A stretch of 38,947 nt of DNA, taken from the NCBI GenBank assembly GCA_035540975.1, contig DATLFN010000014.1, forward strand, positions 1 through 38,947, in the 5' to 3' direction. Below are positions 1,499 through 34,826 of the stretch, piece by piece. Below the pieces are notes generated by a model. That model made no database searches and was not told the origin of the DNA. It saw only the letters and a program-made list of their open reading frames with translations. Position numbers and translations under genes: made by a program. Numbering within the stretch: position 1 is the first letter of the stretch; each line of letters begins with the position of its first letter. Origin of the DNA: Acidimicrobiales bacterium (GTDB lineage Bacteria > Actinomycetota > Acidimicrobiia > Acidimicrobiales > GCA-2861595).

Positions 1499-1533
1499 GG
1501 CTACAGGATGGAGCCCGGCGTACCCTTCTCGCC

Positions 1534-7193: not shown

Positions 7194-7199
7194 TTGCAC

Positions 7200-7340: not shown

Positions 7341-7358
7341 TAGCAGCACTGAGCGCCG

Positions 7359-7396: not shown

Positions 7397-7458
7397 AGGT
7401 GCAGACGACCGACGTTGTTCTGCGGGCGCCGCCCGCCGGGACGAGCAGGACGGAAAAC

Positions 7459-19227: not shown

Positions 19228-20410
19228 GTCGAGTTCCACCAACGGCGCCCGCCCCGCGATCCTCGGCGGGCGGGCGGCCTTCCCTGGCGGGCTGGCCTTC
19301 TTCCGCCCTGCGACGCCACCGCTGAAGCGGGTCGTGGCCCGTCTCGAGCACTCGTGGGAACTCGGCGTGCTCACGAATGGACCGCTGGTGCGGGAACTGG
19401 AGGAGGCCGTCGCGGCCCGCCTCGACGTTCGCCACGCCGTCGCCGTCTCGTCCTGCACTTCGGGCCTGCTGTTGAGCCTGCGGGCGCTCCGGCTCTCGGG
19501 CCGTGTCGTCCTCCCCAGCTTCACGTTCTCCGCCTCCGCGCATGCGGTGGCCTGGAACGGGCTGGAACCCGTCTTCGCCGAGTGCGATCGGGCGACCTTC
19601 CAGGTCGACCCGGCCGATCTGGAGGCACGCGTCGCGGCATGCGACGGCGTCCTGGCGACCCACGTCTTCGGCGCCCCGTGTGACGTAGAGCGTGTGACGG
19701 CCGCCGCCGACACCGCCCGGGTGCCCGTTGTGTTCGACGCCGCTCATGCCCTCGGCACGAAGCGCCGCGGAGAGCCGATCGGCGGGTTCGGTGACGCCGA
19801 GGTCTTCAGCTTGAGCCCCACCAAGCCGGTCGTCGCCGGCGAGGGGGGAATGGTCACCACCGATCGCGACGATGTCGCCGAAGCGGTGCGCATCGGGCGC
19901 GACTACGCCAACCCCGGCGACTACGACACCCGCTTCATCGGGCTCAACGCCCGGATGTCCGAGCTACACGCGGCGCTGGCCTTGGAGTCGCTCCACGAGA
20001 TCGACGAGAACCAGCGACGCCGCCGAGCGGTTGCCGCCCGGTACCGGGCCGGCCTCTCAGAGCTTCCCGGTATCACCCCCCAGGCGGTCGACGAGGGCGA
20101 CGAGTCGTCCTACAAGGATTTCACGGTCATCATCGACGAGGAGTTCGGGCTCCGACGCGACACTCTCGGCCGGGCGCTGCTCGCTGATGGCGTCGACACG
20201 CGGCGGTACTTCGACCCGCCCGTCCACCGCCACCAGGCGTATGCCCATCTCCCTCCGGTACCGCTGCCCGTCACCGACGACGTGGCCAGCCGGGTCATCA
20301 GCCTGCCGATGTCGGCGGTGCTCCCGCCGGAGGCGGCCGACCGCGTGGTGGAGGTGATCGCCGCGCTGCATGAGCACGCGACCGACGTCGAGGCCATGGT
20401 CGCACCATGA
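19226..20410 (+). CDS. DegT/DnrJ/EryC1/StrS-type PLP sugar aminotransferase
   Basis: A 394-residue protein starting at ATG after AAAGGAG (5-base spacing); a longer in-frame extension upstream lacks coding character. The N-terminal part has the family's LTNGPLVRELEEAVA and VSSCTSGLLLSLRAL, FTFSASAHAV and DAAHALGTK. The PLP lysine is Lys200 in FSLSPTK followed by GEGG. C-terminal features include the GLNARMSELHAALAL motif and DTRRYFDPPVHRHQAY. These enzymes convert keto-sugar nucleotides to amino-deoxy sugars. It would act after a 4,6-dehydratase (the CapD homologue at 37361) and before the formyltransferase (30263-31051). The stop overlaps the start of the next gene (ATGA), so the three genes 19226-22193 form one operon. 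Confidence 0.92.
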   Translation: MSSSTNGARPAILGGRAAFPGGLAFFRPATPPLKRVVARLEHSWELGVLTNGPLVRELEEAVAARLDVRHAVAVSSCTSGLLLSLRALRLSGRVVLPSFTFSASAHAVAWNGLEPVFAECDRATFQVDPADLEARVAACDGVLATHVFGAPCDVERVTAAADTARVPVVFDAAHALGTKRRGEPIGGFGDAEVFSLSPTKPVVAGEGGMVTTDRDDVAEAVRIGRDYANPGDYDTRFIGLNARMSELHAALALESLHEIDENQRRRRAVAARYRAGLSELPGITPQAVDEGDESSYKDFTVIIDEEFGLRRDTLGRALLADGVDTRRYFDPPVHRHQAYAHLPPVPLPVTDDVASRVISLPMSAVLPPEAADRVVEVIAALHEHATDVEAMVAP

Positions 20411-21396
20411 CCCCGGAGCCCTTGTCGACGCTCCTCGACGGGGCGGAGTTCCGTACCGCCGTTGCCTTCGGCTTCGCCGGGCTCGTCGCGGGCATGGGTG
20501 TGGCCGTCGCCTGGCGGGCAGCCCGTCGCCGTGGCACCCCGCCGGTCGTCGGCATCCTCGTCGTGACCGCGGGTGCGCTCGCCGTGAGGGAGCCGGTCGC
20601 GCCCGCGCCCGGCCGCCTGCTGGACGACCCGAGCCTGCCCGGCGGGCTGGTGGTCGCCTTCGGCGTCCTCGTCGTGGCCGGCATGGTGGCCGATTTGGCG
20701 CGATGGCCGGTCGGCGCTGGTGCGCTGCTCGCCCTCCCGGGGGCGTTCCTTCTCGCCACGCGTGCCGAGATCGTCGAGGTCACCTGGATCCGGGTCGCCG
20801 CCGGTGCCGCCACCCTGGCGGGCGGCTGGATGGTCGCGTCGTTCGACCGCCGTTGGGAGGGGCAGGGAGTGGCACCGGCGATGCTGGCGCTGTCCGCCGT
20901 CGGCGTGTACTTCACCGTCCCGGACACGGAGGAGGCCATGGTGCTGCTCGGCGTCTCGGCGCCGATCGCCCTCCTGGGTTGGCCGCTGTGCCTGGCGAGG
21001 ATCGGCACAGGTGGTTCTTTCGCGGTGATGGGGCTGCTTTCCTGGACCGTCGCCGAAGGCGGCTACGGCCGGCACAGTTCGATCGTCGGGGGTCTTGCGT
21101 GCGTGGGGTTGTTCGCCGTCGAGCCCCTCGTCGGTCTGGCCGCTCGGGTTGACGGCTGGCGCAGATCGAGGTCACCGCTCGTTCCACTCGGGGTCATGGC
21201 GGTCCACCTGGCGCTCGTCTTCGTGGCGTCCCGCGTCGCCGGCCTCCGGCTCACCGTGCCGGCCGCCCTCGCCATCGTGGGCGCCGAGTTGGTGGTCGCC
21301 ACCGGCGTCCTGGCGGGCCTCAGCCGCGCCCTGCGGGCACCGACGGAAGGCTCGCTCGGCACCCAGGGCGCCGTGGCGACAGAGCGGCAGGCATGA
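20407..21396 (+). CDS. Integral membrane protein of unknown family
   Basis: A 329-residue protein with roughly nine hydrophobic segments, including VAFGFAGLVAGMGVAVAW, LVVAFGVLVVAGMVADL, GALLALPGAFLLAT and VPLGVMAVHLALVFVASRVAGL. It shows few charged loops and no signature that I recognise. The ATG overlaps the stop of the aminotransferase gene and the TGA overlaps the start of the glycosyltransferase gene, so all three are translationally coupled. By context it serves surface glycan assembly, as a transport, O-acyl-type modification or scaffold protein. None of these is supported by motifs. Confidence 0.75.
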   Translation: MTPEPLSTLLDGAEFRTAVAFGFAGLVAGMGVAVAWRAARRRGTPPVVGILVVTAGALAVREPVAPAPGRLLDDPSLPGGLVVAFGVLVVAGMVADLARWPVGAGALLALPGAFLLATRAEIVEVTWIRVAAGAATLAGGWMVASFDRRWEGQGVAPAMLALSAVGVYFTVPDTEEAMVLLGVSAPIALLGWPLCLARIGTGGSFAVMGLLSWTVAEGGYGRHSSIVGGLACVGLFAVEPLVGLAARVDGWRRSRSPLVPLGVMAVHLALVFVASRVAGLRLTVPAALAIVGAELVVATGVLAGLSRALRAPTEGSLGTQGAVATERQA

Positions 21397-22193
21397 GAAT
21401 CGCCACGGTCACCGTCATGCGCGGCGAGGTCGGTCAGTTGAGGCGGCTGCTGGCGTCACTGGAATGGGCTGACGAGCGTCACGTCGTCGAGACGGGGCCG
21501 GAGGTCGAGGCCACCGTCGACGCGGCCGGCGACGCCGTGGTCCACCACGCGCCACGGCCGCTCGGGACGGGGTTCGACGACGCAAGGGCGGTGGCGCTGA
21601 CCGCGGTGGAAGCCCAGTGGGTCCTGGTGGTGGACACCGACGAGGAGATCCCCGAACCGTTGGTGGATCGCCTGAGGACCGAGGCGGAGTCATGGCACCG
21701 GGAAGGGGTGGCGGGTGTGTGGCTCCCGCGCCTCAACCACGTGCTCGGTACGCCGTTGCTGCACTCCAGCACCTGGCCGGACTACCAGATGCGTTTCCTG
21801 CGTCCCGAGGCGGCGGTCTTCAGCCCGGTCCTGCACGAGCCGCTCGGGGTGGGTGGCCCGGCACGATGGCTCCCGGCCGACCCACGGTGCGCCATCCAGC
21901 ACCACAACTTCCGGTCGACCACCCAGTTCGTGGAGAAGCTGAACCTCTACTCCACGATCGAGGCGGGCCAAGGCGGCCGGGGTGGCAGGCCCACCGTACG
22001 GGCCGCGGTCCGGGCCGGGGTTCGTGAGTTCCTCGCGCGCTACGTGAAGATGCGGGGCTTTCGCGACGGCCCCGAAGGGCTGCACTACTGCATTCTGCAC
22101 GGAATGTACCGCTACCTCATCGGGTCCAAGCTGTGGGAGCAACGCGGTCGCGGCGGTGGGGGTTCGTCCAGGGGTCATCCCCGGCGCAGGTAG
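21393..22193 (+). CDS. Family 2 glycosyltransferase
   Basis: A 266-residue protein with a GT-A fold pattern: short N-terminal strand MRIATVTVMRGE, then VLVVDTDEEIP, where Asp81-x-Asp83 is the metal/nucleotide-sugar DxD motif. A central WPDYQMRFLRP (~residue 130) and HHNFRST segment resembles GT2 enzymes that elongate surface glycans. The C-terminal 60 residues are basic and include a likely amphipathic helix (YCILHGMYRYLIGSKLWEQR). No transmembrane domain is seen. It is the last gene of the 19226-22193 operon and convergent with the beta-helix gene; the 182-base gap between them contains no gene. Confidence 0.87.
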   Translation: MRIATVTVMRGEVGQLRRLLASLEWADERHVVETGPEVEATVDAAGDAVVHHAPRPLGTGFDDARAVALTAVEAQWVLVVDTDEEIPEPLVDRLRTEAESWHREGVAGVWLPRLNHVLGTPLLHSSTWPDYQMRFLRPEAAVFSPVLHEPLGVGGPARWLPADPRCAIQHHNFRSTTQFVEKLNLYSTIEAGQGGRGGRPTVRAAVRAGVREFLARYVKMRGFRDGPEGLHYCILHGMYRYLIGSKLWEQRGRGGGGSSRGHPRRR

Positions 22194-22375: not shown

Positions 22376-24055
22376 TCAAAGCGTGTTTGCCGACGCCGTG
22401 ACGGCGGTGCTCAGGTGGTCATTCACCACGGCCTCCGTGGCGCCCGAGAAGGCGTTGCCGGTCACGGAAACCACATGGGCGTTGGCCAGACGTACACCGG
22501 CGCGCGTCCCGCAGCCCGCGTCGGTGAACGTGACGGTGTTTCCCGCCACCTCGGCACCGGCGACCCCCCGCAGTTCGACGGCGTCGCCGAAGGAGAGGAG
22601 GCGGTTGCCGGTGATGGTGTACCCCGCGCGGAGCCCGCCGTCCGGTGTCTCGACGAACACCGGCGGCCTGCAGCTCACCAGCGGGCCGACCATGGTGTTC
22701 CCCGTGATGGTGATCTCTCCCACGTTGACGGCGGCGCCGCCGCCGGCGTTGGCCAGCACCGAGAAACGGATTCGCCCGAACGTGTTGTTCTCCAGGCGGA
22801 TGCCGGTCGCCCGAGCCTCCAGGAAGTCGGGCTCGATGTCGACGGCATTCATGTTCACCTCGCCGAGATAGGACCCCTCCACGAGCAGTCCTTCGACGTT
22901 CGTGGGGGAGATCCCCTGGCGGCCGTTGCGTTCGAACCGGGCGTTGCGGATCGTCACGTTGCGCGCCGGTGCCGTCGTCGTCGGGTCGTAGCGCTCGTCG
23001 TGGTGGATCGCCACGAAGTCGCCGTGGACGTCGTGAGCGCCGACGCCGTCGAGCGTGGCGCCCTGCGTCCCCTCGATCGAGTACGCGTGCTGGAACTCGT
23101 AGGACGGGTCGTACGCGCCTTCCACGATGCCGGCGGTGGGGTTCGCGCCGCGGGCGGTCATGTTCCGGAGCGTGACGCTCTTGCCGCCCTGGAGCCGCCA
23201 GTTCCGCCGAGTGCTGCTCCCCTTGGTCAGCGCCGCGAACGTGGCGCCGTTGCCGTCGACGGTGAGGTTCGTCCGGTCCGCCAGCACGATGGAGCCGTCC
23301 ACCCCATAGCAGCCGCCCGGCGCGAACCGCGCGACGGCGTGGTTCGGGACCCGGGCGAGCCAGTCCATGATCTCGGCGTCGACGGGGCGCGAGCAGTCAG
23401 CTGCGATCGAGCTGGGCACCTCATAGACGGGCGACGGGGGAATAGGCGTGGCGACGCCGGTGCACCGCGAGACCTGGGAGACCTCGATGCCCGACACCAT
23501 CGGGTTCTCGACCACCTTGGTGAACTCGAGGCTCACGGCACCGTCGGGGACGTCGGCGTCAAAGCTGCGCACCAGGGCGGCGTGCCTGCCGGCGACGGCG
23601 AGCACGTCGAGGCGGGAGATGCGCTCCGTGCCCTCGGCCGACACATTGAACACGCGCTGGCCGGGCGCGTACCAGTACACCTCGGCGAAGTGCAGGTCGA
23701 CGCGGTACCTGGCCGGGCACGGCACGGGCACGTCGTAGCCGGACATCGCCCAGCGGTGCTTCGTGTACAGGTCGTCGTCGTCCGTGCCGGCCACCGGAAC
23801 GGGCACCGGCGCCGAGGGGGCGCCGCCGACGAAGCCGGTATCGGCCGACCAAATCCGCCCCGCCGAGTCGGTGTAGGCGTTCCCTCCCGCGCTGACCCGG
23901 ACGGAGAACGCCGCGTCGGTCGCGAGGGACCGCCCTCTGGGCAGGACGAGCCCGACAGCCGACAGGAGGAGGACGAGCACCAGAACGGTGTGGCGGCGTG
24001 CCGCGGTTGCGCGGCGGCGACGCGCTCGCCGGGCGGGGATGTTCGTCGTCACCAC
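22376..24055 (-). CDS. Secreted malectin-like + right-handed beta-helix protein (paralogue A)
   Basis: A 559-residue protein with a basic N-terminus and one hydrophobic segment (~22-45: TVLVLVLLLSAVGLVL) serving as a signal peptide or anchor. A malectin-like carbohydrate-binding domain (~50-190) has the strands FSVRVSAGGNAYTD, YRVDLHFAEVYWY and RVFNVSAEG. A beta-helix domain (~215-559) shows many short repeated strands (VTIRNARFERNGRQGIS, IRLENNTFG, ITITGNTMVG, VSVTGNAFSG). Four cysteines (DCSRP, GGCYG, SCRPP, AGCGT) are shared with both paralogues and probably form disulfides. Beta-helix proteins of this type include polysaccharide lyases, epimerases and phage-like depolymerases; catalytic residues are not evident. 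GTG start. It lies in the same direction as paralogue B, 140 bases downstream of it. Confidence 0.85.
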   Translation of the reverse strand: MVTTNIPARRARRRRATAARRHTVLVLVLLLSAVGLVLPRGRSLATDAAFSVRVSAGGNAYTDSAGRIWSADTGFVGGAPSAPVPVPVAGTDDDDLYTKHRWAMSGYDVPVPCPARYRVDLHFAEVYWYAPGQRVFNVSAEGTERISRLDVLAVAGRHAALVRSFDADVPDGAVSLEFTKVVENPMVSGIEVSQVSRCTGVATPIPPSPVYEVPSSIAADCSRPVDAEIMDWLARVPNHAVARFAPGGCYGVDGSIVLADRTNLTVDGNGATFAALTKGSSTRRNWRLQGGKSVTLRNMTARGANPTAGIVEGAYDPSYEFQHAYSIEGTQGATLDGVGAHDVHGDFVAIHHDERYDPTTTAPARNVTIRNARFERNGRQGISPTNVEGLLVEGSYLGEVNMNAVDIEPDFLEARATGIRLENNTFGRIRFSVLANAGGGAAVNVGEITITGNTMVGPLVSCRPPVFVETPDGGLRAGYTITGNRLLSFGDAVELRGVAGAEVAGNTVTFTDAGCGTRAGVRLANAHVVSVTGNAFSGATEAVVNDHLSTAVTASANTL

Positions 24056-24133
24056 GAGACCGTCCCCTCGCTCGGATCCGGATCCAGGAGCCGTCGCCGG
24101 CCCGTCGGGGCGGACAGTACCGGTTCGCCACCT

Positions 24134-24175
24134 TTACGGCAATGGCCGCTTCGGTACCTTACGGCGCCCTACGGC
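24134..24175 (-). repeat. Three GCCGTA-type direct repeats upstream of paralogue A
   Basis: On the minus strand GCCGTAG (24175-24169), GCCGTAA (24165-24159) and GCCGTAA (24140-24134) recur with 10- and 25-base steps, ~80-120 bases before the start of the beta-helix gene at 24055. Direct heptamers one helical turn apart look like an operator; the function is inferred only from this spacing. Confidence 0.5.
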
Positions 24176-24195
24176 AAGCGTGACCAGGCGGCCGC

Positions 24196-25968
24196 TCAAG
24201 GCGTGTTGTTCGCCGTCGTGACGCCGGTGCTGAGGCTGTCCTGGGTGATCGCCCGTTCGGCACCGTCGAACGAGTTGCCGGTCACCGAGACGCCGTGCGA
24301 GTCCACCAGCCCGACGCCCGAGCTGGTGCCGCAGCCGCCGAAGACGAAGCTGACCGTGTTGCCCGACACCTCGACGCTCTTGGAGCGGATGAAGTCGAAG
24401 GCGTTGCCGAGCGTCATGAACCGGTTGTTCGTGATCACGTAGCCCGAGCGGTAGCGACCGGCCGCGGCGGTCTCGGCGTGGACGGGGGGCCGGCAGCTCA
24501 CCAGGGGGCCCACCATCGTGTTGGCGTCCAGCGATATCGGGCCCACGTTGGGATCGACCCCAGCGCCCACGTTGGCCAGCACCGAGAAGCGGACCGGCCC
24601 GAAGGTGTTGCCCACGATCCGGATGTCCTTGCCCTTCGCCTCGTCGAAGTCCAGCTCGATGTCGACCGCGTTCATGTTCACGTCGCCGAGGTACGAGGAC
24701 TCGAGGAGCAACCCTTCCACGTTGGTCGGCGACACCCCTTGGCGGCCGCTGCGGGCGAAGTGCGCGTTGCGGATGGTGATGTCCCGAGCCGGGTCGGTCG
24801 TGTAGGGGTTGAACCGCTCGTCGTGGTGCACGGCCACGAAGTCACCGTAGACGTCGTAGGCCTTGACGTTCTCGAGCACTGCGCCCTGGGTGCCCTCGAT
24901 CGAGTACCCGTGCTGATACTCGTACGCCCCGTCGTAGGACCCCTCGAAGATCCCGGCCTTGGGGTTGACACCGCGAACGGTCATGTTCTTGAGCGTGATC
25001 CGGCTGCCGCCTTGGATGCGCCAGTTCCGCCGGCCGATATCGCCCTGCGTCACCGCCTTGAAGGTGGCGCCGTTTCCGTCGACCGTGAGCTCCGTGCGGT
25101 CGCTCAGCACGATGGTGGCGTCCTGGCCGTAGCATCCGCCGGCCGCGAACCGGGCGACCGCGTTGTCGGGAACGCTGGCCAGCCAGGCGCGGATCTCGGC
25201 GTCCACCGGCCGGGAGCAGTCAGCGGCGATCGTGGCGGGCGCGTCGTACGTCACCGGGACGGGGGCTGGAGAAGGCGCGGAGGCGCAGTCCCCGACCCTC
25301 GCGACCTCGATGCCCGACACCATGGGCTGGTCGACCTTCTTGACGAAGCCGAGGATCAGGCTGCCGTCGTTCACGGCCACGTCGAAGCTGCGGGCGAGGG
25401 CCGTCTCCTTGCCCACCGCTGCCGCGATGTCGAGGTTGGCGAGCTTCGTCTGCCACTCGGCCGTCACGCTGAACACCCGCTGCCCCGCCGCGTACCAGTA
25501 CGTCTCGGCGAAGTGGAGCGTCACCCGGTAGGTCCCGGCACACGGGACGGCCACGCTGTAGCTGCTCATGGCCCAGCGGTGCTTCTGGTAGAGCGGGCCG
25601 GCGTCCGTCCCGGAGATGGGCGCCGGAGTCGGCGACGCCGGCGCTCCGCCCACGTAGCCATGGTCGGGTGACCAGGTGTGACCCGCCGGGTCGGTGTACT
25701 GCGAAGCTCCGCCGGTGTTGATGCGGGTCACGAACGGCGGTGCCGGGGGCGGAGGCGCCGTCGTGGTCGTCGTGGTGGTGGGGGCTAGGGTCGTCGTCGT
25801 GGTCGCGGGCGCAGTGGTCGTCGTGGTGGCCGTCGTGGTCGTCGTGGTCACGGGCCGTGGCTTCCGTGGACGGGCGGCTGCGACGTCGGGAAAGGCTGCG
25901 ACGACGACGAGGAGGAAGCTGACCACGGCGGCCCAGGTGGTGGCCGAGACGCGCAGGGATCGAGACAT
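24196..25968 (-). CDS. Secreted malectin-like + right-handed beta-helix protein (paralogue B)
   Basis: A 590-residue protein. The ATG at 25968 is chosen because it gives a clean signal peptide (MSRSLRVSATTWAAVVSF..., ending near AAA/RPRKP) with GAGGAG 12-17 bases upstream; the longer open frame above it is not coding. A Thr-rich linker (~40-75), a malectin-like domain (~80-225: RINTGGASQYTD, VTLHFAETYWY, RVFSVTAEW) and a beta-helix domain (~250-590) follow. The helix closely matches paralogue A, including VEGLLLESSYLGDVNMNAVDIE and the HHDER loop. The Thr runs are candidates for O-glycosylation and could span the cell wall. Secretion and domain order are clear; enzymatic activity is not. Confidence 0.87.
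   Translation of the reverse strand: MSRSLRVSATTWAAVVSFLLVVVAAFPDVAAARPRKPRPVTTTTTTATTTTTAPATTTTTLAPTTTTTTTAPPPPAPPFVTRINTGGASQYTDPAGHTWSPDHGYVGGAPASPTPAPISGTDAGPLYQKHRWAMSSYSVAVPCAGTYRVTLHFAETYWYAAGQRVFSVTAEWQTKLANLDIAAAVGKETALARSFDVAVNDGSLILGFVKKVDQPMVSGIEVARVGDCASAPSPAPVPVTYDAPATIAADCSRPVDAEIRAWLASVPDNAVARFAAGGCYGQDATIVLSDRTELTVDGNGATFKAVTQGDIGRRNWRIQGGSRITLKNMTVRGVNPKAGIFEGSYDGAYEYQHGYSIEGTQGAVLENVKAYDVYGDFVAVHHDERFNPYTTDPARDITIRNAHFARSGRQGVSPTNVEGLLLESSYLGDVNMNAVDIELDFDEAKGKDIRIVGNTFGPVRFSVLANVGAGVDPNVGPISLDANTMVGPLVSCRPPVHAETAAAGRYRSGYVITNNRFMTLGNAFDFIRSKSVEVSGNTVSFVFGGCGTSSGVGLVDSHGVSVTGNSFDGAERAITQDSLSTGVTTANNTP
25759..25850. repeat. Low-complexity Thr-codon tract in paralogue B
   Basis: Plus-strand runs of GTCGTGGTC/GTCGTCGTGG encode, on the minus strand, clusters of consecutive Thr in the linker after the signal peptide. 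Short-unit repeats of this kind can expand or contract by slippage, so linker length may vary among strains. Confidence 0.8.
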
Positions 25969-26201
25969 GGGACGAAGGGCTCCTCGGGGACGGCCGGACG
26001 GGTTCACCGCGGAGTGCGTTGCGAGACGGCCGGCCAACGGCCGGCGTCGTGCCGCCCGCGCCGGCCTGAGTGCGGCGGTGACCGGTCCAGGAGTGCTGGA
26101 TTCAGTGAACTGAGGACTGTGTCGACCGCTTCGTCGGCGCCCTTGAGGGGACATCTGCGAGCGGTAGGTGCACCCGCGCCCGCCGGTTCCCCCGCCGTCC
26201 G
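25969..26201. promoter_or_regulatory. Divergent intergenic region, paralogue B / flippase
   Basis: A 233-base divergent gap without a credible gene. It includes a GGCCGGCCAACGGCCGG partial inverted repeat (~26030-26046) and a small operator-like palindrome TCAGT-GA-ACTGA (26102-26113). It must carry the promoters for the minus-strand beta-helix gene and the plus-strand flippase operon. No clear -35/-10 pair was recognised. Confidence 0.4.
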
Positions 26202-27596
26202 GTGACGCCACCGATGGGCGTGCCTGCATCCCAGGGCGGAAGTGCGACCCTGCTGCACGACAGCGGCCTGCTCCTCGCCGCTCGCGCCGCGCAGACCCTG
26301 TTCGGGGCCGTCACCTTCGTCGTACTGACCCGCCGCCTCGGGCCCGCCGGGTTCGGCGAGGTGGTGACGGCATCGGGGTTCGTCAGCGTCGTCGGGGGCG
26401 TCGTCGGGACGGCGTTGAGCGACGCCGCGGTGACCGCCGGAGGCGATCTGCCGCGGTTCGGCAGGGTCACCGCAGCGGTCGCGCTCGTTTCCGGCGTCGC
26501 CGTCGGGCTGGCCTGGGCCGCCAGCGGCGGTGATGGCGACGGCCTGGTGGCGGCGCTCGGAGGGGCGCTGTTCGTGTCGGCATCGGCGGCGACGGCAGGG
26601 AGGACGGCGCTTGCTCGGGTGGGGGGCGACGCCTGGCAGCTGGCCCTCCTGCAGGCGGGCGGCGCCCTGGCCACGCTGGCGGTGGTCGGCTCCCTCGCCT
26701 CCGCAGGCGTGAGCCGCTGGGGACCGTACGTCCTCGCCTACGCGGCGCAACCGGCCGCGCTCCTCCTCCTCCGGCGGTCGCCCCGAGGAGCCGCCGGGCC
26801 GCCGACGGCAACGACGCTGCGGGACCTCGTCCGGACGGCCGGCCCCTTCCTGTTGTCACAGGCGATATGGCCGCTTCTCGGGCTGACGAACATCGTGGTG
26901 CTCCGGGCGCTCAGTGGCCCGGCCACCGTCGGCCGCTACGGGGCGATGGTGCGGATCCTCGACCTCGTCGGGCTCGTCGGGCCTCTCCTCGGCACGTTCG
27001 CGCTGCCGGCCTTCGCTCGCCTCCAGCGGACGCCGGCACGCCGGTCCGAGATCTCGCGGCTCAATCTCACCATCGCCGTGGCCGCAACGCTGCCCGTCGT
27101 CGCGGGGATGCATCTGGCGTGGGTCGGCTGGAGGCTCGCCTATCCCGACCTGCGATTTCCCGTGACGGCGTTCGCGGTCCTGGCCGCCGCGTACGGGCTC
27201 AACAGCGCGTGCGGCCTACCGGACCGAGTGCTGCAGAGCGGGGGAGCCGCCCCCGTCGTCGCCCGTGCCGCGTCAGCGGCCCTCGCCGCCGTTGCCGTCC
27301 TGAGCCCTCTCCTCGTGTGGCGGGCGTCGCTCGTCGGCGCCGGCGTAGCGCTCCTCCTCGCCGTGGGCGGGGTCAACGTCGCCATGCTCGTGGCCGCGCG
27401 GCCAACCCGCGCCGCCCTGGCCGGCCACGCGGTGATCGCTGCCGTCGTCGCGGGTGGCGCCTGCGCCGTGGCCTCCGGGTGGGCGACGGACTCCGCCGTC
27501 AAGTCGGGGCTGCTCGTCGTGGCGTCGGTGGTGCCGCTCGTGGTCGGCGTCGTGTCGGTCGACCGCTGGCATCGCCGCGCGTGGGCGTCCCCATGA
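26202..27596 (+). CDS. Wzx-type polysaccharide flippase (MATE/MOP superfamily)
   Basis: A 464-residue protein (from the GTG at 26202; the ATG at 26214 would remove four residues) with about 12-14 hydrophobic helices and the start typical of the MOP superfamily: LLLAARAAQTLFGAVTFVVLTRRLGPAGFGEV. Later the segment FLLSQAIWPLLGLTNIVVLRALSGPATVGRYGAM marks the second half-repeat. These transporters flip undecaprenyl-linked oligosaccharide repeat units to the outer face of the membrane. It is followed, with an ATGA overlap, by a glycosyltransferase, so the two are coupled. Sequence does not tell which glycan it exports, but its place among the glycosyltransferases fits the repeat unit of this locus. 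Confidence 0.85.
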   Translation: MTPPMGVPASQGGSATLLHDSGLLLAARAAQTLFGAVTFVVLTRRLGPAGFGEVVTASGFVSVVGGVVGTALSDAAVTAGGDLPRFGRVTAAVALVSGVAVGLAWAASGGDGDGLVAALGGALFVSASAATAGRTALARVGGDAWQLALLQAGGALATLAVVGSLASAGVSRWGPYVLAYAAQPAALLLLRRSPRGAAGPPTATTLRDLVRTAGPFLLSQAIWPLLGLTNIVVLRALSGPATVGRYGAMVRILDLVGLVGPLLGTFALPAFARLQRTPARRSEISRLNLTIAVAATLPVVAGMHLAWVGWRLAYPDLRFPVTAFAVLAAAYGLNSACGLPDRVLQSGGAAPVVARAASAALAAVAVLSPLLVWRASLVGAGVALLLAVGGVNVAMLVAARPTRAALAGHAVIAAVVAGGACAVASGWATDSAVKSGLLVVASVVPLVVGVVSVDRWHRRAWASP

Positions 27597-28609
27597 GGTT
27601 GGCGTTGATCCTCCCCGCGCAGATCGAGGGCTGGGGTGGTGTGCAGAGGTTCGGCGCCTGCCTCGAGCCGGCGCTCGCATCGATCGCCGAGGTGTCGGCC
27701 TACCGGCTCCATCCCGCTCCGGGGGCGTCGCGGCTGGCAGCGCTCGTCACCGGTGTGCGCGACCTCGGTCGTGACCACCGCCGCCAGCACTTCGACGCCG
27801 TCGTCAGCACGTTCCACTGGCCACCGCGCCTGCTCGGCGTGCCCATGGTCGGCGTGGTCCACGACCTGCGACGGCGGGCAGGGGCCCGGAGCGGGTCGCT
27901 TGCCGCCCACCTGGAGCGAGCGGTCCTCCGGACATGGGACCTCGTGCTCGTCCCGACGGAACACGTGCGTGACGAGGTCGCGTCCTTCGTCGGCGAGCGA
28001 AGGATCGCGGTCATAGGGGAGGGGACCGACCACCTCGACCACCTTGCGCCGCCGCCCGCCGAACGCCGCCTGGTCGTCGTGCTCGGCGGGCGGGCCCCGC
28101 ACAAGCGGGTCGAGCTCGGTGTCCGGGCGGCCGCCGAGGCGGTGGCGCGGCTCGACGCCGAGGGCGTGGTGCTGGGCGCCGCGCCCCACCTCCGCATGGG
28201 CCCGAGGATCCGCGTCCTCGAGGTTCCTGCCGACGAGGAGATCGCCGAGGTGCTCAGCCGTGCCCGCGTGGTGCTCGCCCCGAGCCGGTACGAGGGCTTC
28301 GGCCTGGCCGCCGGCGAAGCCCTCCGCCTCGGTGCCCCCGTCGTCTTCGCGGCGGACGGACCGCTCGGCGGACTCGTCGGCAGCGGCGGCCTACCCTCGG
28401 CGCCGTCGGCGTCGGCCATGGCTGACGCCACGGTGGCGGCGTGGAGACAACACGACGCGCTGAGCGTCGCAGCCCGCGACGCAGTCCGCCGGCTGACCTG
28501 GGACGCGACTGCCCGGCGGATCGTCCGAGAAGTCGGGTTTCTCGTCCAATATCCGCCCTTGCATGCCCGAAAAACGGTTCGCGGTCTTTTCCGTTTGCGT
28601 CCACGGTGA
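27593..28609 (+). CDS. Family 4 glycosyltransferase (GT-B)
   Basis: A 338-residue protein. The ATG overlaps the flippase stop. The N-terminal Rossmann-type half starts LALILPAQIEGWGGVQRF, where the GG loop is typical of GT4 acceptor domains. The C-terminal donor domain shows VVVLGGRAPHKRVELGVRA and APSRYEGFGLAAGEALRLGAPVV, whose E-x7-E (EGFGLAAGE) binds the nucleotide-sugar. It should act on the cytoplasmic face, adding a sugar to the lipid-linked repeat unit. The enzyme is a little shorter than usual (~370). No signal peptide or membrane helix. The following gene begins 49 bases downstream with its own strong ribosome site. Confidence 0.88.
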   Translation: MRLALILPAQIEGWGGVQRFGACLEPALASIAEVSAYRLHPAPGASRLAALVTGVRDLGRDHRRQHFDAVVSTFHWPPRLLGVPMVGVVHDLRRRAGARSGSLAAHLERAVLRTWDLVLVPTEHVRDEVASFVGERRIAVIGEGTDHLDHLAPPPAERRLVVVLGGRAPHKRVELGVRAAAEAVARLDAEGVVLGAAPHLRMGPRIRVLEVPADEEIAEVLSRARVVLAPSRYEGFGLAAGEALRLGAPVVFAADGPLGGLVGSGGLPSAPSASAMADATVAAWRQHDALSVAARDAVRRLTWDATARRIVREVGFLVQYPPLHARKTVRGLFRLRPR

Positions 28610-28658
28610 GACACACTGGCAGGGACCGACCGTGCTGTCCGGATACAGGGAGGTCTCA

Positions 28659-30236
28659 ATGGGCCGCGGGAACCACGCCACGTCCGGACCTCAGACGTCC
28701 CCATGCCCGCGCCGGAGACGGCTGCGCTGGAGCCTGCCGGTCCTCCTGGCGACGGTCGCGGCGGGCCTCGCCGGCGCCGATACCGCCGCCGCTGGGACGA
28801 CCGTCTTCAGCGGGCGGCTCAGCACCGCCAGCCCGACACAGACGTTCACCCTCGTCACGGGCGCCGGAACGCTCGACGCCACGCTGACGTTCTCACGGCT
28901 CCCGAGCGTCACCCTCACCGTGCTCGACGCCTCGGGGGCCGTTCTGGCGGAGCAGACCTCCTCCACCAGCCCGCTGGTGGTGCAGGCACCGGTGGCAGGG
29001 GGAACCCAACAGCTGCGGGTGCGTGGCAACGGCACCTGGCCCGGATCGCCGAAGTTCAGCCTGAGCGTCTCGTATCCCGACACGGCGACCACCACGACGT
29101 CCACCCCGGCCACGACTACCACCACGACCACAACCACGACCACGACCACCACGACCACGACGATGCCGCCGTCGGGGGAGGTCCACACCGTCCCCTCGTC
29201 CATCCCGGCCGACTGCTCGCGCCCCGTCGAGGGGGAGATCATGACGTGGATGCGTTCGGTTCCCGACAACGCGACGCTGCAGTTCGCGGTCGGCGGCTGC
29301 TACGCCCAGGACGACACGATCCTCGTGCGCGACCGGGACGGCCTCGTCATCGACGGCAGAGGCTCGACGTTCCGTGCGGTTACCGTCGGCCACAGTCACC
29401 GCGCCAACTGGCGCTTCGAGTCAGGCGCCGATCTCACGGTTCGGAACATGGTGGTGCAGGGGTCGAACCCGGCGGCGGGGATCACGGGCACGGCGTACTA
29501 CCCGCCCCTCGAGTGGCAGCACGGTTACTCCATCGACGCCGTCCAGGGGATCACGCTGGACGGCGTCGCCGCCTCCGACACCTACGGCGACCTGCTTGGC
29601 GTCCAGTACGACGAGCGCCTCGGGGTGTTCCAGTCGCCGCCCGCCCGCAACGTCACCGTCGTCAACTCCAGGTTCGAGCGCAGCGGCCGTCAGGCGATCG
29701 CGCTGAGCCACGTCGAGGGAGCGCTCATCCAGCGCAACTATATCGGCGACAGCAACATGAACGGCGTGGACGTCGAGCTGAACGACCCGACGGAGAAGGG
29801 GCTCGACATCCGGATCCTCGACAACACGTTCGGCGCCCTGCGATTCTCCATGGTGGCGAATGTGGGGTCCGGGTACGATCCCAACGTCGGGCGGATCACC
29901 GTCGAGCGGAACGTGATGAACGGTCCCCTCGTGACGTGCCGCCCGCCGGTCTACGTCGAGACGCATGACGATCTGTTTCGGACCGGCTACACCGTCCGCG
30001 ACAACCAGATGCTCGCCTACGGTGACGGGCTCGACTTCATCGGCGTCAAGGAGATCGTCGTTTCCGGGAACACGATCAGGTTCACGAACGGCGACTGCGG
30101 CACGCTGGCCGGGGTGGGGCTGGTGAACTCGCACAACGTGTCGGTGGTCGACAACGCCTTCCTCGGCGCCGCCGAGGCGGTGAAGCAGGACGCCAGGACC
30201 ACGAATGTGACCCAGTCCGGGAACCGGCTCTCGTAG
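28659..30236 (+). CDS. Secreted beta-sandwich + right-handed beta-helix protein (paralogue C)
   Basis: A 525-residue protein. The ATG at 28659 follows GGGAGG at 7-base spacing; the open frame above it is leftover. The signal peptide is RRLRWSLPVLLATVAAGLAGA (~18-40). Unlike A and B, residues ~48-140 are not malectin-like. They form a beta-strand-rich module (FSGRLSTASPTQTFTLVTG, PSVTLTVLDASGAVL, GTQQLRVRGNG) resembling pre-peptidase C-terminal-type domains. A tract of ~18 Thr (~145-172) then joins it to a beta-helix (~180-525) homologous to A and B, with the same four cysteines. The loop HHDER of A/B is QYDER here. It is the only copy on the plus strand. Probably surface or extracellular, acting on or binding glycan. 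Confidence 0.85.
   Translation: MGRGNHATSGPQTSPCPRRRRLRWSLPVLLATVAAGLAGADTAAAGTTVFSGRLSTASPTQTFTLVTGAGTLDATLTFSRLPSVTLTVLDASGAVLAEQTSSTSPLVVQAPVAGGTQQLRVRGNGTWPGSPKFSLSVSYPDTATTTTSTPATTTTTTTTTTTTTTTTTMPPSGEVHTVPSSIPADCSRPVEGEIMTWMRSVPDNATLQFAVGGCYAQDDTILVRDRDGLVIDGRGSTFRAVTVGHSHRANWRFESGADLTVRNMVVQGSNPAAGITGTAYYPPLEWQHGYSIDAVQGITLDGVAASDTYGDLLGVQYDERLGVFQSPPARNVTVVNSRFERSGRQAIALSHVEGALIQRNYIGDSNMNGVDVELNDPTEKGLDIRILDNTFGALRFSMVANVGSGYDPNVGRITVERNVMNGPLVTCRPPVYVETHDDLFRTGYTVRDNQMLAYGDGLDFIGVKEIVVSGNTIRFTNGDCGTLAGVGLVNSHNVSVVDNAFLGAAEAVKQDARTTNVTQSGNRLS
29088..29162 (+). repeat. ACC/ACG low-complexity tract encoding poly-Thr
   Basis: Nearly uninterrupted Thr codons in paralogue C (ACC, ACG, ACT and ACA mixed). 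The mix of synonymous codons suggests selection on the Thr run itself, although slippage is still possible. Confidence 0.85.
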
Positions 30237-30262: not shown

Positions 30263-31051
30263 TCACCGCACGCCACGGAGCGCGTGGCGTGCCCACGTCC
30301 AGGCGGTCGGGTGGCTCCGCAGCTTCGACGGCAGGTCGGCGACCGGCGCCTGCACGGCGAGGGGCTCGCCCGCCAGGGCGCGCCCGGCGACCGAGACGAT
30401 GGCCGGCAGGGCGGCCGCCACGTGCAGGTAGGGGTACGTGGCGAAGGAGTCGCGCGGCGTCACCGCGATCGTTCGCTGCGCGAGGATGCCGCCCGTGTCG
30501 ATCCCGGCGTCGACGAGGTGCACGGTGGAGCCGGCGAGGTCCGGGCGCCCCTCGGCCAGCGCCCAGTACCCGCCGTGCACCCCCCGGTACGCCGGCGTGA
30601 TGCCGGCGTGATAGTTGACCACCGGTGCGGTGAACGTTCGCAACGTCTCCGCCGAGATGATCCGAGTCCCGCAGACGACGACGACCGCTGGCTGAAGGCG
30701 CTCGACGACGGCTCGGGCCGATTGGTCGTTGACCGACGGCACCCGGTGGACCGCATGAAACGGTCCGTCGTCCAGGGAGAACTCCCGCTTGATCTCCTCG
30801 ATCCGCGCCCGCCCGGTCCGCCGGAGCACCGGCACGACGAGCGCCAGGAACAGCGCCTGCCCGAGCACCGTGGCGGCGCCGAGCCGTCGGAGCCGGCGCC
30901 ACAGGAGCCTTGTCCGGGGAACGGGGTCCTCGACGACCACCACCACGTCCGGGAAGTGCGAGCCCAGGCGGTGGTAGACGATCCGGCTGGCGTCACAGTC
31001 TGTGCACAACAGGACGAGCCGACCGCCTGTCGGTCGCGAAGGACCGGCCAT
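30263..31051 (-). CDS. Formyltransferase-family protein, probable sugar N-formyltransferase
   Basis: A 262-residue protein whose second half carries the formyltransferase core: VVNYHAGITPAYRG (Asn146, His148) and STVHLVDAGIDTGGIL (Asp185). These form the Asn-His-Asp catalytic set that uses N10-formyl-tetrahydrofolate. The first ~100 residues (LVLLCTDCDASRIVYHRLG, then a hydrophobic stretch 60-75) are not those of methionyl-tRNA formyltransferase, and the C-terminal OB domain of Fmt is absent. Within a glycan locus that also encodes a DegT aminotransferase, N-formylation of an amino-deoxy sugar nucleotide is the best hypothesis. ATG start. It is convergent with paralogue C (26-base gap) and divergent from the next glycosyltransferase gene. 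Confidence 0.85.
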   Translation of the reverse strand: MAGPSRPTGGRLVLLCTDCDASRIVYHRLGSHFPDVVVVVEDPVPRTRLLWRRLRRLGAATVLGQALFLALVVPVLRRTGRARIEEIKREFSLDDGPFHAVHRVPSVNDQSARAVVERLQPAVVVVCGTRIISAETLRTFTAPVVNYHAGITPAYRGVHGGYWALAEGRPDLAGSTVHLVDAGIDTGGILAQRTIAVTPRDSFATYPYLHVAAALPAIVSVAGRALAGEPLAVQAPVADLPSKLRSHPTAWTWARHALRGVR

Positions 31052-31116
31052 GGCGCGGAGTGTACGGGTCGACGGCGCCGCGAGAGGGGCGCCGCCGCGA
31101 GGTCGGAGCCGGGACG

Positions 31117-32253
31117 GTGCTGAGAGTCCTAGGGGTTGCCGCGTACCCGCTGACGGCGGCCGCGACCCGGTACCGGCTGGTCCAGCTCATCGAGCCGCTC
31201 GCCGCCCGAGGGGTCCAGCTCGAGGTGGTGACCTTCCTCGACGACGCCACGTTCGCCACTCTCTACGACCGGTCGGCCTGGCCGTCGACTACCCGGGGCC
31301 TGCTCCGGGGCACCGCCCGGTTGTGCACGGTGCCGTGGCGTGCCCGGTCGACCGATGTGCTGCTCGTCCAGCGCGAGGCGGCGTTGGTCGGCCCACCGGT
31401 GGTCGAGCTCGCTGCCCGAGCGATCGGGCGCGTCCCACTCGTCCTCGACCTCGATGATGCCACTTACATCGGCCACACGAGCCCCATCTATGGCCGCGTC
31501 GCCCGGTTGCTGAGGTCGCCCGGCAAGGCCGACACCCTCATTCGCCGCGCCGCCGTGGTGACGTGCGGAGGCACGGTACTGGCCGACTATGCCCGCTCCC
31601 TCGGAGCACGTACGGCGATCATTCCCACCGTCGTCGACACCGATCGGTTCCGCCCGCGAACCGATGATCGGCTCCATCGCATGCCGGTCGTGGGTTGGGT
31701 CGGGTCCCACTCCACCTTTCCCTGGTTGGAGGCGCTCCTGCCGGCGCTCGCGCAGGTGGCGCTCCGCCGGCCGTTCCATCTCCGCGTGATCGGCTCGGGC
31801 CGGGACTCGTTCACCGTCGGCGAGCTCCACGTCGATTGCGTCCCGTGGACGCTCGGCGGTGAGGTCGCAGAGTTCCAGCAGCTGGACGTCGGCCTGTACC
31901 CGATGGCCGATACGCCTTGGACGGCCGGAAAGTCGGCGTTGAAGTCGGTCCAGTACATGGCGGTCGGCGTCCCGTTCGTCGCCAGCCCCGTCGGCGCCGC
32001 CGTCGAGGTCGGCGAGGCGGAGGTGACGCACCTGACGGCGACGTCACCGCAGGAGTGGCAGGATGCGCTCGAGCGACTCCTGGCGGACCCGGGACTGCGG
32101 GCCCGGTTGGGCGCCGCGGGCCGCGAGCACGCCGTGCGGCGCTACCACGTGTCCATCGTCGCCGACCGGCTGGCGGCGGTGGTCTCCGAAGCCGCAGCCA
32201 GCCGCGGTCAGCCTCCCAGAGGCGCGTCCGGCGGCACATCCGCGGGGCGGTGA
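31117..32253 (+). CDS. Family 4-type glycosyltransferase
   Basis: A 378-residue protein. The GTG at 31117 begins VLRVLGVAAYPLTAAATRYR; the longer upstream frame is antisense to the formyltransferase gene and not coding. The GT-B pattern is visible: an N-terminal Rossmann half with LVLDLDDATYIGHTS and TCGGTVLADYAR, then VVGWVGSHSTFPWLEALLPAL at the domain junction. The donor domain has LYPMADTPWTAGKSALKSVQYMAVGVPFVASPVGA, in which GKSALK replaces the usual EGFG acidic motif. Similar enzymes occur in O-antigen and capsule loci. The last 46 bases overlap the convergent methyltransferase gene. Confidence 0.87.
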   Translation: MLRVLGVAAYPLTAAATRYRLVQLIEPLAARGVQLEVVTFLDDATFATLYDRSAWPSTTRGLLRGTARLCTVPWRARSTDVLLVQREAALVGPPVVELAARAIGRVPLVLDLDDATYIGHTSPIYGRVARLLRSPGKADTLIRRAAVVTCGGTVLADYARSLGARTAIIPTVVDTDRFRPRTDDRLHRMPVVGWVGSHSTFPWLEALLPALAQVALRRPFHLRVIGSGRDSFTVGELHVDCVPWTLGGEVAEFQQLDVGLYPMADTPWTAGKSALKSVQYMAVGVPFVASPVGAAVEVGEAEVTHLTATSPQEWQDALERLLADPGLRARLGAAGREHAVRRYHVSIVADRLAAVVSEAAASRGQPPRGASGGTSAGR

Positions 32254-33188
32254 GCGACGACGAACCATCCCGCCTCATCACGGGCGTTGAGCACCTCCAG
32301 ACCGGCGCTCGAGAACCATCGGGCGATGTCCTCCCAGAGGTAGCGGGCCTCGAGCGGGGCGCTCAGCCGGTCGAAGGTGTCGAGCCAGAGACTGCGGAAC
32401 GGCTTCGAGCGGTAGGCCGCCAGCGGGAGGTGCGACGCCCGCGTGAGCCCGGGAACGGCACGCCCCGGCAACACGAGCGTCACCCACAGGATGGCGGCGA
32501 CCACGGCGCTGGCGGATCGCAGCGCCGGGTGCGGGACGCGCACGGTCAGCCTGCGCAGCGCTCGTGCCGCAGCGAGGCCGACGGCTCGCAGCCCCCTCGT
32601 CGTGGCCCGGCTGTAGACGTAGATCAGCAGGAACCCGTCCGGCTCGAGGAGCCGCACCAGCTCGGCGAACCCGTCCTCGGGATCGGGGAGGTGATGGAGC
32701 ACCCCGAGGCAGGAGATGAAGCCGAAGGAGCGGTCGTCGAACGGCATGGACCGGACATCCGACTTGACGACCAGCGCGTTGGCGCTCGCCGAGAGGTTGT
32801 TGACTGCTGCCTCGACGGCCGCGGAGCCGTCCACCGCCGCGATCGCGTCCACGTGCCGAGCGGTGAAGTAGGTGAAGCGGCCCTTGCCGCAGCCGGCGTC
32901 GAGGGCGACGCGTCCATGTAGGCGGTCGAGGGGGACGTCTCGGAAGTAGACCTCCCAGAACTGCTCGTCCTCGGGATGGACCGCATCGAACCTCGTCCAC
33001 TCGTACCCGAAGCTCGCCAACGTCCGTGCCACGTCGGGATCGGTTGCCGGCGACGAGGCGTCCAGATAGCCAGGGCGCGTCGACATGCGGTGCCCGTCCG
33101 GGCACCGCATGTCGACGTCGCCCGGGACGACACGCTGCCCGCACGCCGGGCACCGGAGACGCTCCAGGAGCCGAGCAGGGAGGTTCAC
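32208..33188 (-). CDS. SAM-dependent methyltransferase with N-terminal zinc-ribbon
   Basis: A 326-residue protein starting at GTG. The first ~40 residues contain RCPACGQ and MRCPDGH, a Trm112-like zinc ribbon often fused to class I methyltransferases. The SAM-binding motif I is VALDAGCGKGRFTYF (~90-105), followed by AVDGS (motif II), PFDDRSFGFISCLGVLHHL (motif post-I/III) and LLEPDGFLLIYVY (motif IV). The C-terminal half has two hydrophobic segments (SASAVVAAILWVTLVLPG) that could contact the membrane. It probably methylates a sugar or a lipid-linked intermediate. The gene overlaps the 3' end of the glycosyltransferase gene by 46 bases. The substrate is unknown. Confidence 0.85.
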   Translation of the reverse strand: MNLPARLLERLRCPACGQRVVPGDVDMRCPDGHRMSTRPGYLDASSPATDPDVARTLASFGYEWTRFDAVHPEDEQFWEVYFRDVPLDRLHGRVALDAGCGKGRFTYFTARHVDAIAAVDGSAAVEAAVNNLSASANALVVKSDVRSMPFDDRSFGFISCLGVLHHLPDPEDGFAELVRLLEPDGFLLIYVYSRATTRGLRAVGLAAARALRRLTVRVPHPALRSASAVVAAILWVTLVLPGRAVPGLTRASHLPLAAYRSKPFRSLWLDTFDRLSAPLEARYLWEDIARWFSSAGLEVLNARDEAGWFVVAHRPADVPPDAPLGG

Positions 33189-33547
33189 CCCGCGTCGCCG
33201 TCCGCCTTCCACGCGGTGAGGTTCGTGGCGGGTGCGGGCGGCCGCCTCCGAGGCCCGAACTGCGGGCGTCGTGCGACGGGCGGGAGCGGGGCGGCCGTTA
33301 CCATGGGCGCCATGTTGCTCCCGGCGGCACGGGCGACGCCAGCGGGCGCACGTCCCGACGGGCTGGCCGTGCGCGCCGACGACCGCAGGGCGGCGACGGG
33401 TCGTCGTCGGTGACCTGCGTCGGTATTTCCGGCCCGGCGTCGAGTCGAGGGCGGGGCGCCATGGCGGCTCCGTCCGCGGCGACCTCCTGAGCACCCGGTG
33501 CGTGCCGGCGGCGGGCCCGGTAGGCGGCGACATAGGGCGCCGGGATC
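33189..33547. other. Intergenic region without a recognisable gene
   Basis: A 359-base divergent gap between the methyltransferase start and the next glycosyltransferase start. Both strands carry short open frames rich in Arg/Ala/Gly typical of random high-GC sequence, with no ribosome sites before them. It must contain the promoters of both flanking genes. I found no convincing promoter, repeat or RNA. Confidence 0.5.
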
Positions 33548-34714
33548 GTGAGCGCACCCGGAGCAGCAGGCACGCCGTCGGGAGACGACCACGGGCGCCG
33601 TCGCCGGCTCCGGGTCCTGTGGGTCACCAAGGGGCTCGAGGTCGGCGGGATCGAGCGGCTCCTGTGCTGGATGGCGGCCGCCCGTGACGGCGCGAGCTTC
33701 GACTGCGAGGCCGCCTATGTCCTCGCTTGGGCCGGCACGCTCCACGACCAGCTCGGCGCCACCGGCGTGGCTGTCCACCGCCTCGGCGCCCGCAGCGAGC
33801 TCGATCCCCGGTGGGCGCTCAGGCTGCGCCGCCTGCTCGACGCCCGCCGTTTCGACGTCGTGCACTTCCACTCGCCCTACGTGGCCGGCGTCGGGCGCAT
33901 GGTCGTGCGGTCGTTGTCGCCCGGCCGCCGCCCGCTGATGGTCTCGACCGAGCACAACGTCTGGAGCGACTACCCGGTCCCGACACGGGCGCTGAACGCG
34001 CTGACCACCCGCCTCGACGACGCCCACGTGGCGGTCTCCGAGCGGGTGCGGCAGTCGATGGCATCGGCGGTGCGGAACCGCGTCGACGTGGTGCTGCACG
34101 GCATCCCGCTCGAATCGGTGCGTGTGCACCGGTCGCTGCGGGGCGAGGTCCGCCGCGAGCTCGGCGTCGCCGAGGACGACGTGGTGGTCGGCACGGTGGC
34201 GAACCTGCGGGCCCAGAAGGGCTACCCCGACCTGCTCGAGGCGGCCCGCCGGCTGCTCGGCGACGGCCTCCCCGTCCGGTTCCTGGCCGTCGGTCAGGGC
34301 CCGATGGAGGAGGAGCTGCGACGGCTGCACGCCGCACTCGGGCTCGGGGACCGGTTCCGCTTCCTCGGCTACCGGGAGGACGCCGTCCACCTCCTGGCCG
34401 GCTGCGACCTGTTCGTGCTCGCCTCACGCCACGAGGGCGGCCCGCTGGCGGTGCTCGAGGCACTCGCCATGGGCCTGCCCGTCGTCGCCACCACCGTGGG
34501 CGTCGTCCCCGACGTGGTCACCGACGGCGTCGAGGGCATACTCGTGCCGCCGCGACGGCCGGACCTCCTCGCCGACGCGCTCGAGCGGCTGGTCCTCGAC
34601 ACCGGCCGGCGAGCGGCGATGTCGGCTGCCGCCCTACGGCGAGCCCACGACCTGGATGTGGTGTCGACTGTGCGGCACCTGGAGGAGCTGTACCGCCGCC
34701 TCGCGGCCCGCTGA
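33548..34714 (+). CDS. Family 4 glycosyltransferase (GT-B)
   Basis: A 388-residue protein from GTG. After a short Arg-rich lead, the N-terminal half begins LRVLWVTKGLEVGGIERLL, the GG-containing loop of GT4 acceptor domains, then DVVHFHSPY and LMVSTEHNVWSD. The donor half shows VGTVANLRAQKGYPDLLEA and ASRHEGGPLAVLEALAMGLPVVAT, whose E-x7-E motif (EGGPLAVLE) is the sugar-nucleotide site. It should elongate the repeat unit in the cytoplasm. It is followed by 112 bases that hold an inverted repeat and the ribosome site of the Tat-protein gene. This is the strongest GT4 match of the three. Confidence 0.91.
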   Translation: MSAPGAAGTPSGDDHGRRRRLRVLWVTKGLEVGGIERLLCWMAAARDGASFDCEAAYVLAWAGTLHDQLGATGVAVHRLGARSELDPRWALRLRRLLDARRFDVVHFHSPYVAGVGRMVVRSLSPGRRPLMVSTEHNVWSDYPVPTRALNALTTRLDDAHVAVSERVRQSMASAVRNRVDVVLHGIPLESVRVHRSLRGEVRRELGVAEDDVVVGTVANLRAQKGYPDLLEAARRLLGDGLPVRFLAVGQGPMEEELRRLHAALGLGDRFRFLGYREDAVHLLAGCDLFVLASRHEGGPLAVLEALAMGLPVVATTVGVVPDVVTDGVEGILVPPRRPDLLADALERLVLDTGRRAAMSAAALRRAHDLDVVSTVRHLEELYRRLAAR

Positions 34715-34754: not shown

Positions 34755-34826
34755 GATCGTCAGAGGCGGGCGTGGCCCCCCGCTCCGTAGTGTCGCCTCG
34801 ACAACCACGAGGCGGAGGTGTTGGTC

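Follow-up and report, generated by a model that had tools for sequence, protein, structure and literature searches.

Most of the well-studied bacterial enzymes that act against their producer's own matrix are proteobacterial. RbmB of Vibrio cholerae is a lyase that degrades the matrix polysaccharide of the cell that makes it (PMC11637428; PDB 9ozd, 9ozl), and WceF of Pantoea stewartii, a glycan hydrolase with a beta-helix fold that degrades stewartan, is encoded in the operon by which its producer synthesises the exopolysaccharide (PMC7949094). VexL of Achromobacter denitrificans, which the WceF paper cites, is a monomeric beta-helix hydrolase involved in capsular polysaccharide modification (PMC7949094). 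Here, we describe three paralogous beta-helix proteins, A, B and C, encoded within a surface-glycan locus on a 38,947-nt stretch of DNA from an Acidimicrobiales bacterium (Actinomycetota; Acidimicrobiia; GCA-2861595), namely positions 1 to 38,947 of the (+) strand of contig DATLFN010000014.1 (assembly GCA_035540975.1), hereafter the window. The type of system is already known from RbmB, WceF and VexL; what is new is the actinobacterial setting, the triplication inside one locus with different modules, and a ladder of conserved residues for which the libraries used gave no match to a characterised family. Judging from sequence and predicted structure, we put the chance at about even that A, B and C are locus-encoded secreted enzymes acting on the organism's own surface polysaccharide, and we favour depolymerisation, by a lyase or a hydrolase, over epimerisation.

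Three paralogues with a common helix and different N-terminal modules

A, B and C (Table 1) are open frames whose codon-position GC content is of the coding type. Their N-termini combine a basic stretch with a hydrophobic core and resemble signal peptides (by eye and hydropathy only), and hydropathy revealed no stretch past the N-terminus hydrophobic enough for a membrane anchor. Over 338 aligned residues, the helix domains are 64.5% (A and B), 50.9% (A and C) and 51.2% (B and C) identical, and in a tree of 26 helix domains the three proteins form one clade (support 100/99), with A and B as sisters (97/96). Since A, B and C form a single clade, the scaffold was duplicated inside this lineage, with the modules differing between the A/B branch and C. 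The first-pass annotation had described three secreted beta-helix paralogues that share four cysteines as well as NMN(A/G)VD(I/V)E and VEG segments, and this description holds: both segments are present in all three proteins, and the cysteines align at residues 221/249/462/515 of A, 251/279/492/546 of B and 186/214/427/480 of C. The first cysteine pair is also found in most of the wider family, whereas the second is limited to A, B and C and missing from all other homologues aligned.

The N-terminal halves of A and B are 47.5% identical and have no domain in common with C. Those of A and B contain a malectin domain (Pfam PF11721, known as CBM57 in CAZy) that scores 71.9 and 81.3 bits, respectively, against a gathering cut-off of 23, matches solved animal malectins by sequence and includes an additional cysteine pair conserved between the two (113/198 in A and 143/228 in B). 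No malectin match was found in C by Pfam; this protein instead carries a different N-terminal beta-sandwich, as the earlier reading had it, and we found no second copy of the sandwich in the genome. Also in agreement with that reading, threonine (Thr) runs are present in B and C and not in A: the Thr-richest 30-mer holds 23 Thr in both B and C versus five in A. However, the sites differ, with the run of B (residues 41–70) preceding the malectin domain and that of C (residues 142–171) lying between the two domains. The Pfam Beta_helix profile was above its cut-off in A and C and just below it in B. Finally, no 10-mer was shared upstream of A, B and C, so that this crude test revealed no common regulatory motif.

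Several other profile matches were considered and set aside. A copper-binding function of the NosD type was discarded, with weak repeat similarity only (below cut-off in A and B, marginal in C). The matches to New_glue, LysC and an Rz-like spanin were located on the Thr-rich stretch and discounted as low complexity, and an NCBIfam beta-glucuronidase/arabinofuranosidase match spanned the malectin part only.

Predicted fold and structural neighbours

B and C were modelled with AlphaFold from an alignment of the window proteins and the loci recovered by our collection scans, and structural matches were ranked by re-alignment to solved chains, with rows less than one Z unit apart treated as ties. 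The model of B is a confident right-handed beta-helix (predicted local distance difference test [pLDDT] mostly >90), whereas its malectin part was modelled poorly, with a single other malectin row in the alignment. In the model of C, both domains are confident (mean pLDDT 90.8; 84–95 over most of the sandwich). No library named the sandwich, and the fold-search rows were dominated by the helix. Both models align as right-handed parallel beta-helices over >310 residues with Z scores of 35 to 37. The top solved match of each is V. cholerae RbmB (B: Z 36.8, 329 residues, 2.4 Å; C: Z 37.2, 328 residues, 2.2 Å), followed almost level, within 1–3 Z units, by AlgE6/AlgE4, phi29 gp12, an exopolygalacturonase and PfbA. 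Nearly all of the best 50 rows are polysaccharide lyases, hydrolases, epimerases or phage tailspikes. Taken as models, B and C support placing the scaffold of all three proteins in the polysaccharide-active, pectate-lyase-like beta-helix superfamily, although the modelled fold alone does not specify the reaction, whether of a lyase, a hydrolase or an epimerase.

The same ranking bears on a reading in which A, B and C are polymer epimerases of the AlgE type that alter the stereochemistry of the finished chain, the paralogues giving different patterns. The A-modules of AlgE6 and AlgE4 score near RbmB (Z 35.3–36.0 against the B and C models), and modular AlgE paralogues occur within one organism. 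However, none of the three proteins contains the DPH tripeptide, which belongs to the AlgE active-site motif, and the genes identified in the window include none of a uronic-acid pathway. We therefore regard an epimerase role as improbable.

A conserved polar ladder extends to phage tail proteins

In an alignment of 26 diverged helix domains, four residues are the same in every sequence (D376, R409, D436 and E438; B numbering), and a further five, R313, Q352, H353, Q410 and R507, are kept in 77–88% of the sequences. The predicted strand register puts the conserved polar positions R313 to E438 at the strand starts of successive coils or close to them, which is where enzymes of the beta-helix superfamily carry their groove.

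The ladder is found beyond bacteria. Counterparts of the invariant D, R, D and E align in the tail fibre gp22 of phage crAss001 (E-value 3e-8) and in gp94 of Bacillus phage 268TH002, which is annotated as a glycoside hydrolase and retains the ladder with the Q changed to N (L080, 2794-4554). Since gp94 adjoins a poly-gamma-glutamate hydrolase gene, a capsule-directed role is suggested for it. In addition, the PHROG tail-spike family phrog_2234 matches A (1.3e-11) as well as B and C. Because of these phage tail matches, a prophage origin was considered for A, B and C and rejected: the proteins carry signal peptides, and none of the genes identified in the window is a phage gene. Separately, two IMG/VR contigs labelled as viral (L047 and L048) encode helix relatives with signal-like N-termini.

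Distribution of the helix family and a second malectin/beta-helix set

A collection scan with B alone as the query found no loci, whereas a scan with the family alignment found nine. Of 296 genomes sampled from the class, 22 carry the helix family, counting that of the window (about 7%); in a sample of 396 genomes of the phylum, it is present in five besides the window's own. In the class, most of the long matches are 27–41% identical, with higher identity only in short ones, and the named records among the family matches are Acidimicrobiia and other uncultured Actinomycetota. Most relatives consist of a signal peptide and the helix only, and in one (G160; L064, G160:C158, 9017-10852) a malectin-like domain is located C-terminal of the helix and not N-terminal. 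Module gain or replacement is thereby shown, and since most relatives lack a large extra domain, gain is just as likely as exchange. The swapped N-terminal modules of the first-pass annotation are thus apt as a description, but not as evidence of direct exchange.

Malectin is rare in the class (10/296 genomes), yet it shares an open frame with this helix family both in the window (N-terminal) and in G160 (C-terminal). The present genome contains exactly four malectin domains at an E-value threshold of 1e-5, all in glycan settings, and A and B account for two of them. On contig C76, a Pro/Thr linker connects the third to a beta-helix from a different family, for which blastp gave no significant match to the A, B and C helices; a helix paralogue (74% identical) lies immediately upstream, and a GT2 glycosyltransferase and an asparagine-synthase-like amidotransferase follow. 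The fourth, on contig C158, is cut at the contig edge inside a poly-Thr run, with a Bac_transf-family sugar transferase a few kb away. Since C76 starts within poly-Thr in matching orientation, the two contigs may abut in this linker. The pairing of malectin with a beta-helix in a glycan setting thus occurs at least twice in the loci of this genome. Tandem arrays of the second beta-helix family, three to five copies long, were also seen in other genomes of the class (G249:C1 147999-154194, G246:C245 and G194:C271).

The surrounding glycan locus

The genes flanking A, B and C, named by Pfam profile match, make up a surface-glycan locus (Table 1), in keeping with the earlier placement of the three paralogues. 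The formyltransferase is likely a sugar N-formyltransferase, and the joint presence of dehydratase, aminotransferase and formyltransferase genes suggests, by analogy with known pathways, a polymer that contains an N-formylated amino sugar.

Other parts of the window were also recorded. Within the glycan locus, positions 34818-35501 encode a small protein rich in cysteine that carries a twin-arginine-type signal (RRDFIKKG) and matches no Pfam family, and positions 35680-37053 encode a regulator in which one frame matches response-receiver, LuxR and sigma-70 region 4-like helix-turn-helix profiles. The first ~17 kb hold genes unrelated to the glycan locus, among them (4575-9276) a RamC-like kinase with a LanC-like domain followed by an ABC transporter, which resembles a class III lanthipeptide-type system. 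No Rfam families or tRNAs were found in the window.

Table 1. Coordinates of the paralogues, their parts and neighbouring genes in the window, and of the second malectin/beta-helix set on two other contigs of the genome
Feature	Position	Strand	Evidence
DegT/DnrJ/EryC1 sugar aminotransferase	19097..20410	+	Pfam 6.2e-92
Predicted multi-pass membrane protein, no family	20407..21396	+	
Weak GT2-type glycosyltransferase	21393..22193	+	Pfam 0.016, below cut-off
Paralogue A: signal peptide, malectin, beta-helix; 559 aa	22376..24055	-	
Beta-helix domain of A	22379..23428	-	
NMNAVDIE segment of A, its D and E family-invariant	22832..22855	-	
Malectin domain of A	23504..23902	-	Pfam PF11721, 7.7e-20
Paralogue B: signal peptide, poly-Thr stalk, malectin, beta-helix; 590 aa	24196..25968	-	
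Beta-helix domain of B	24199..25248	-	AlphaFold model, pLDDT mostly >90; RbmB Z 36.8
NMNAVDIE segment of B (D436, E438)	24655..24678	-	
Malectin domain of B	25309..25731	-	Pfam 1e-22; sequence match to solved malectins
Poly-Thr stalk of B, N-terminal of malectin	25759..25848	-	23 Thr/30
Wzx-type flippase (Polysacc_synt)	26202..27596	+	Pfam 4.6e-07
GT4 glycosyltransferase	27593..28609	+	Pfam 5e-11, obtained on a longer version of this frame (26867-28609)
Paralogue C: signal peptide, unnamed beta-sandwich, poly-Thr linker, beta-helix; 525 aa	28659..30236	+	
N-terminal beta-sandwich of C	28794..29072	+	Model; no Pfam family above cut-off
Poly-Thr linker of C, sandwich to helix	29082..29171	+	23 Thr/30
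Beta-helix domain of C	29181..30233	+	Model, pLDDT 90.8 overall; RbmB Z 37.2
NMNGVDVE segment of C	29754..29777	+	
Formyltransferase	30263..31051	-	Pfam 1.4e-17
GT4 glycosyltransferase; real start probably more internal	30910..32253	+	Pfam 2.3e-10
Methyltransferase	32208..33557	-	Pfam 7.5e-19
GT4 glycosyltransferase	33548..34714	+	Pfam 2.4e-38
CapD/FlaA1-type nucleotide-sugar dehydratase, extends past the window end	36926..38947	+	Pfam Polysacc_synt_2 2.9e-87
Second-set genes on contig C76 (L081, G000:C76)	3-830, 1088-2632		
Second-set gene on contig C158 (L082, G000:C158)	3-821		

Proposed action on the producer's own polysaccharide and its alternatives

The model that we favour builds on features read from the sequence or the predicted structures, namely the signal-type N-terminus, the beta-helix fold, the ladder, the malectins, the sandwich, common descent and the glycan-locus setting. 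A, B and C would be secreted and fold as beta-helices whose groove binds the locus's polysaccharide outside the cell and then cuts or remodels it, with the D/R/D/E ladder as the putative catalytic site. Acting on the polymer would mean trimming, release or remodelling, as with RbmB on Vibrio polysaccharide. That all four malectin domains of the genome lie in glycan settings speaks for this model. The A and B malectins and the C sandwich may direct the enzyme to different regions of the polymer or the wall, the Thr-rich stretches would serve as flexible stalks, perhaps O-glycosylated, and the substrate would be the locus's own product, possibly bearing the N-formylated amino sugar.

Several observations weigh against this model. 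The fold is common to non-enzymes, such as the PfbA adhesin (Z 34). The ladder looks like an active site in a geometry deduced from strand register, and at the sequence level A, B and C matched no characterised enzyme family, general beta-helix models only. In one alternative, A, B and C would have a matrix or adhesion function without catalysis, the helix and modules binding the polysaccharide so as to anchor it on the cell or to cross-link it. The presence of PfbA among the nearest folds, the lectin-type module of A and B, the long Thr stalk and the several paralogues with different modules, which would fit a scaffold, all speak for such a function. However, charged residues that are invariant in 26 diverged sequences and also kept in phage tail proteins are more typical of catalysis than of a lectin, and we consider a purely binding role unlikely.

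The neighbourhoods of the relatives likewise count against action on the producer's own polymer. In 17 stretches (249 kb) around homologues, we found three non-overlapping GT4 matches, all at G190, versus about 1.7 expected from a genome average of 322 matches in 45.8 Mb, a rough comparison of a single-sequence search near the homologues with a Pfam profile genome-wide. The glycan-locus setting is clearest at just three homologues: G190 (GT4s, GT2 and a sulfotransferase), G524 (GT4s and an open frame that combines Wzy_C with polysaccharide-deacetylase domains) and G002, of the same family (WbsX and a sulfatase). GT-C enzymes adjoin three further homologues, and the remaining ones among those scanned have mixed neighbours. 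The first-pass annotation had held that homologues found mainly outside glycan loci would speak against its proposal; this is in part the case for the family, and not for this genome.

Such a distribution would fit enzymes that digest foreign polysaccharides for food, or the general cell wall, their position in a glycan locus being incidental. Besides the scarcity of homologues in GT4-rich loci, an N-acetylmuramoyl-L-alanine amidase next to one homologue (L049) and a sulfatase next to another (L063) hint at different roles. Yet three paralogues interleaved with glycosyltransferase and flippase genes are hard to ascribe to chance, the second tandem malectin/beta-helix set also adjoins glycan genes, and the genes identified in the window include no sugar importer. 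We consider an external or general wall substrate quite unlikely. The earlier proposal of a system that recognises or remodels the locus's own glycan is thus borne out as far as the superfamily, the invariant ladder, the lectin-type module and the glycan locus are concerned, but GT4 genes are not enriched near the homologues, and we infer the identity of the target, namely the polysaccharide that the locus makes.

A bolder proposal, which we put forward only tentatively and think may well fail, is that A, B and C are founders of an uncharacterised carbohydrate-active enzyme family, defined by the GD / RQG / DxE ladder and spanning secreted actinobacterial proteins and phage tail proteins, crAss001 gp22 included. 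Matrix loci here would have accumulated sets of these enzymes, whose lectin or sandwich modules would be interchangeable, allowing several sites of a single polymer to be edited. Three paralogues that differ in their modules within one actinobacterial glycan locus offer a testable set, in which a common scaffold is combined with different targeting parts. Should the ladder prove catalytic, a function would also be suggested for the beta-helix tail proteins of phages such as crAss001, where none of the passages found on gp22 in the structure paper names an enzymatic role (PMC10172136).

Comparison with known systems

Animal malectin is a lectin of the endoplasmic reticulum, and the malectin domains of A and B are like the animal ones in sequence, with carbohydrate binding by the bacterial copies putative. 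The AlgE-type mannuronan C-5 epimerases share the beta-helix catalytic module with A, B and C, but not the DPH motif. Among phage proteins, crAss001 gp22, the phrog_2234 tail spikes and gp94 of Bacillus phage 268TH002 are profile-related to the helix of A, B and C, and gp22 and gp94 retain the D / R / DxE ladder; these are, however, virion parts or phage products, whereas A, B and C come from a bacterium, are predicted to be secreted by way of signal peptides and carry other additional domains.

VexL resembles A, B and C as far as its description in the WceF paper goes (PMC7949094). WceF shares with them a beta-helix encoded together with the producer's exopolysaccharide synthesis genes, but forms a tailspike-like trimer that has a head domain and whose C-terminal regions intertwine, features that A, B and C appear to lack; they end with the helix, leaving no room for a C-terminal trimerisation domain, and A and B, unlike WceF, carry a lectin-type module. 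The closest counterpart in structure is RbmB. It was not found among the sequence matches to PDB chains, in a chain set that may lack the 2026 RbmB entries, and in structural alignment it is 12–14% identical to B and C. The aligned RbmB chain is a single helix of ~360 residues that has neither a malectin nor a sandwich module. RbmB, as predicted for A, B and C, is a secreted right-handed beta-helix, and it cleaves the matrix polysaccharide of its maker.

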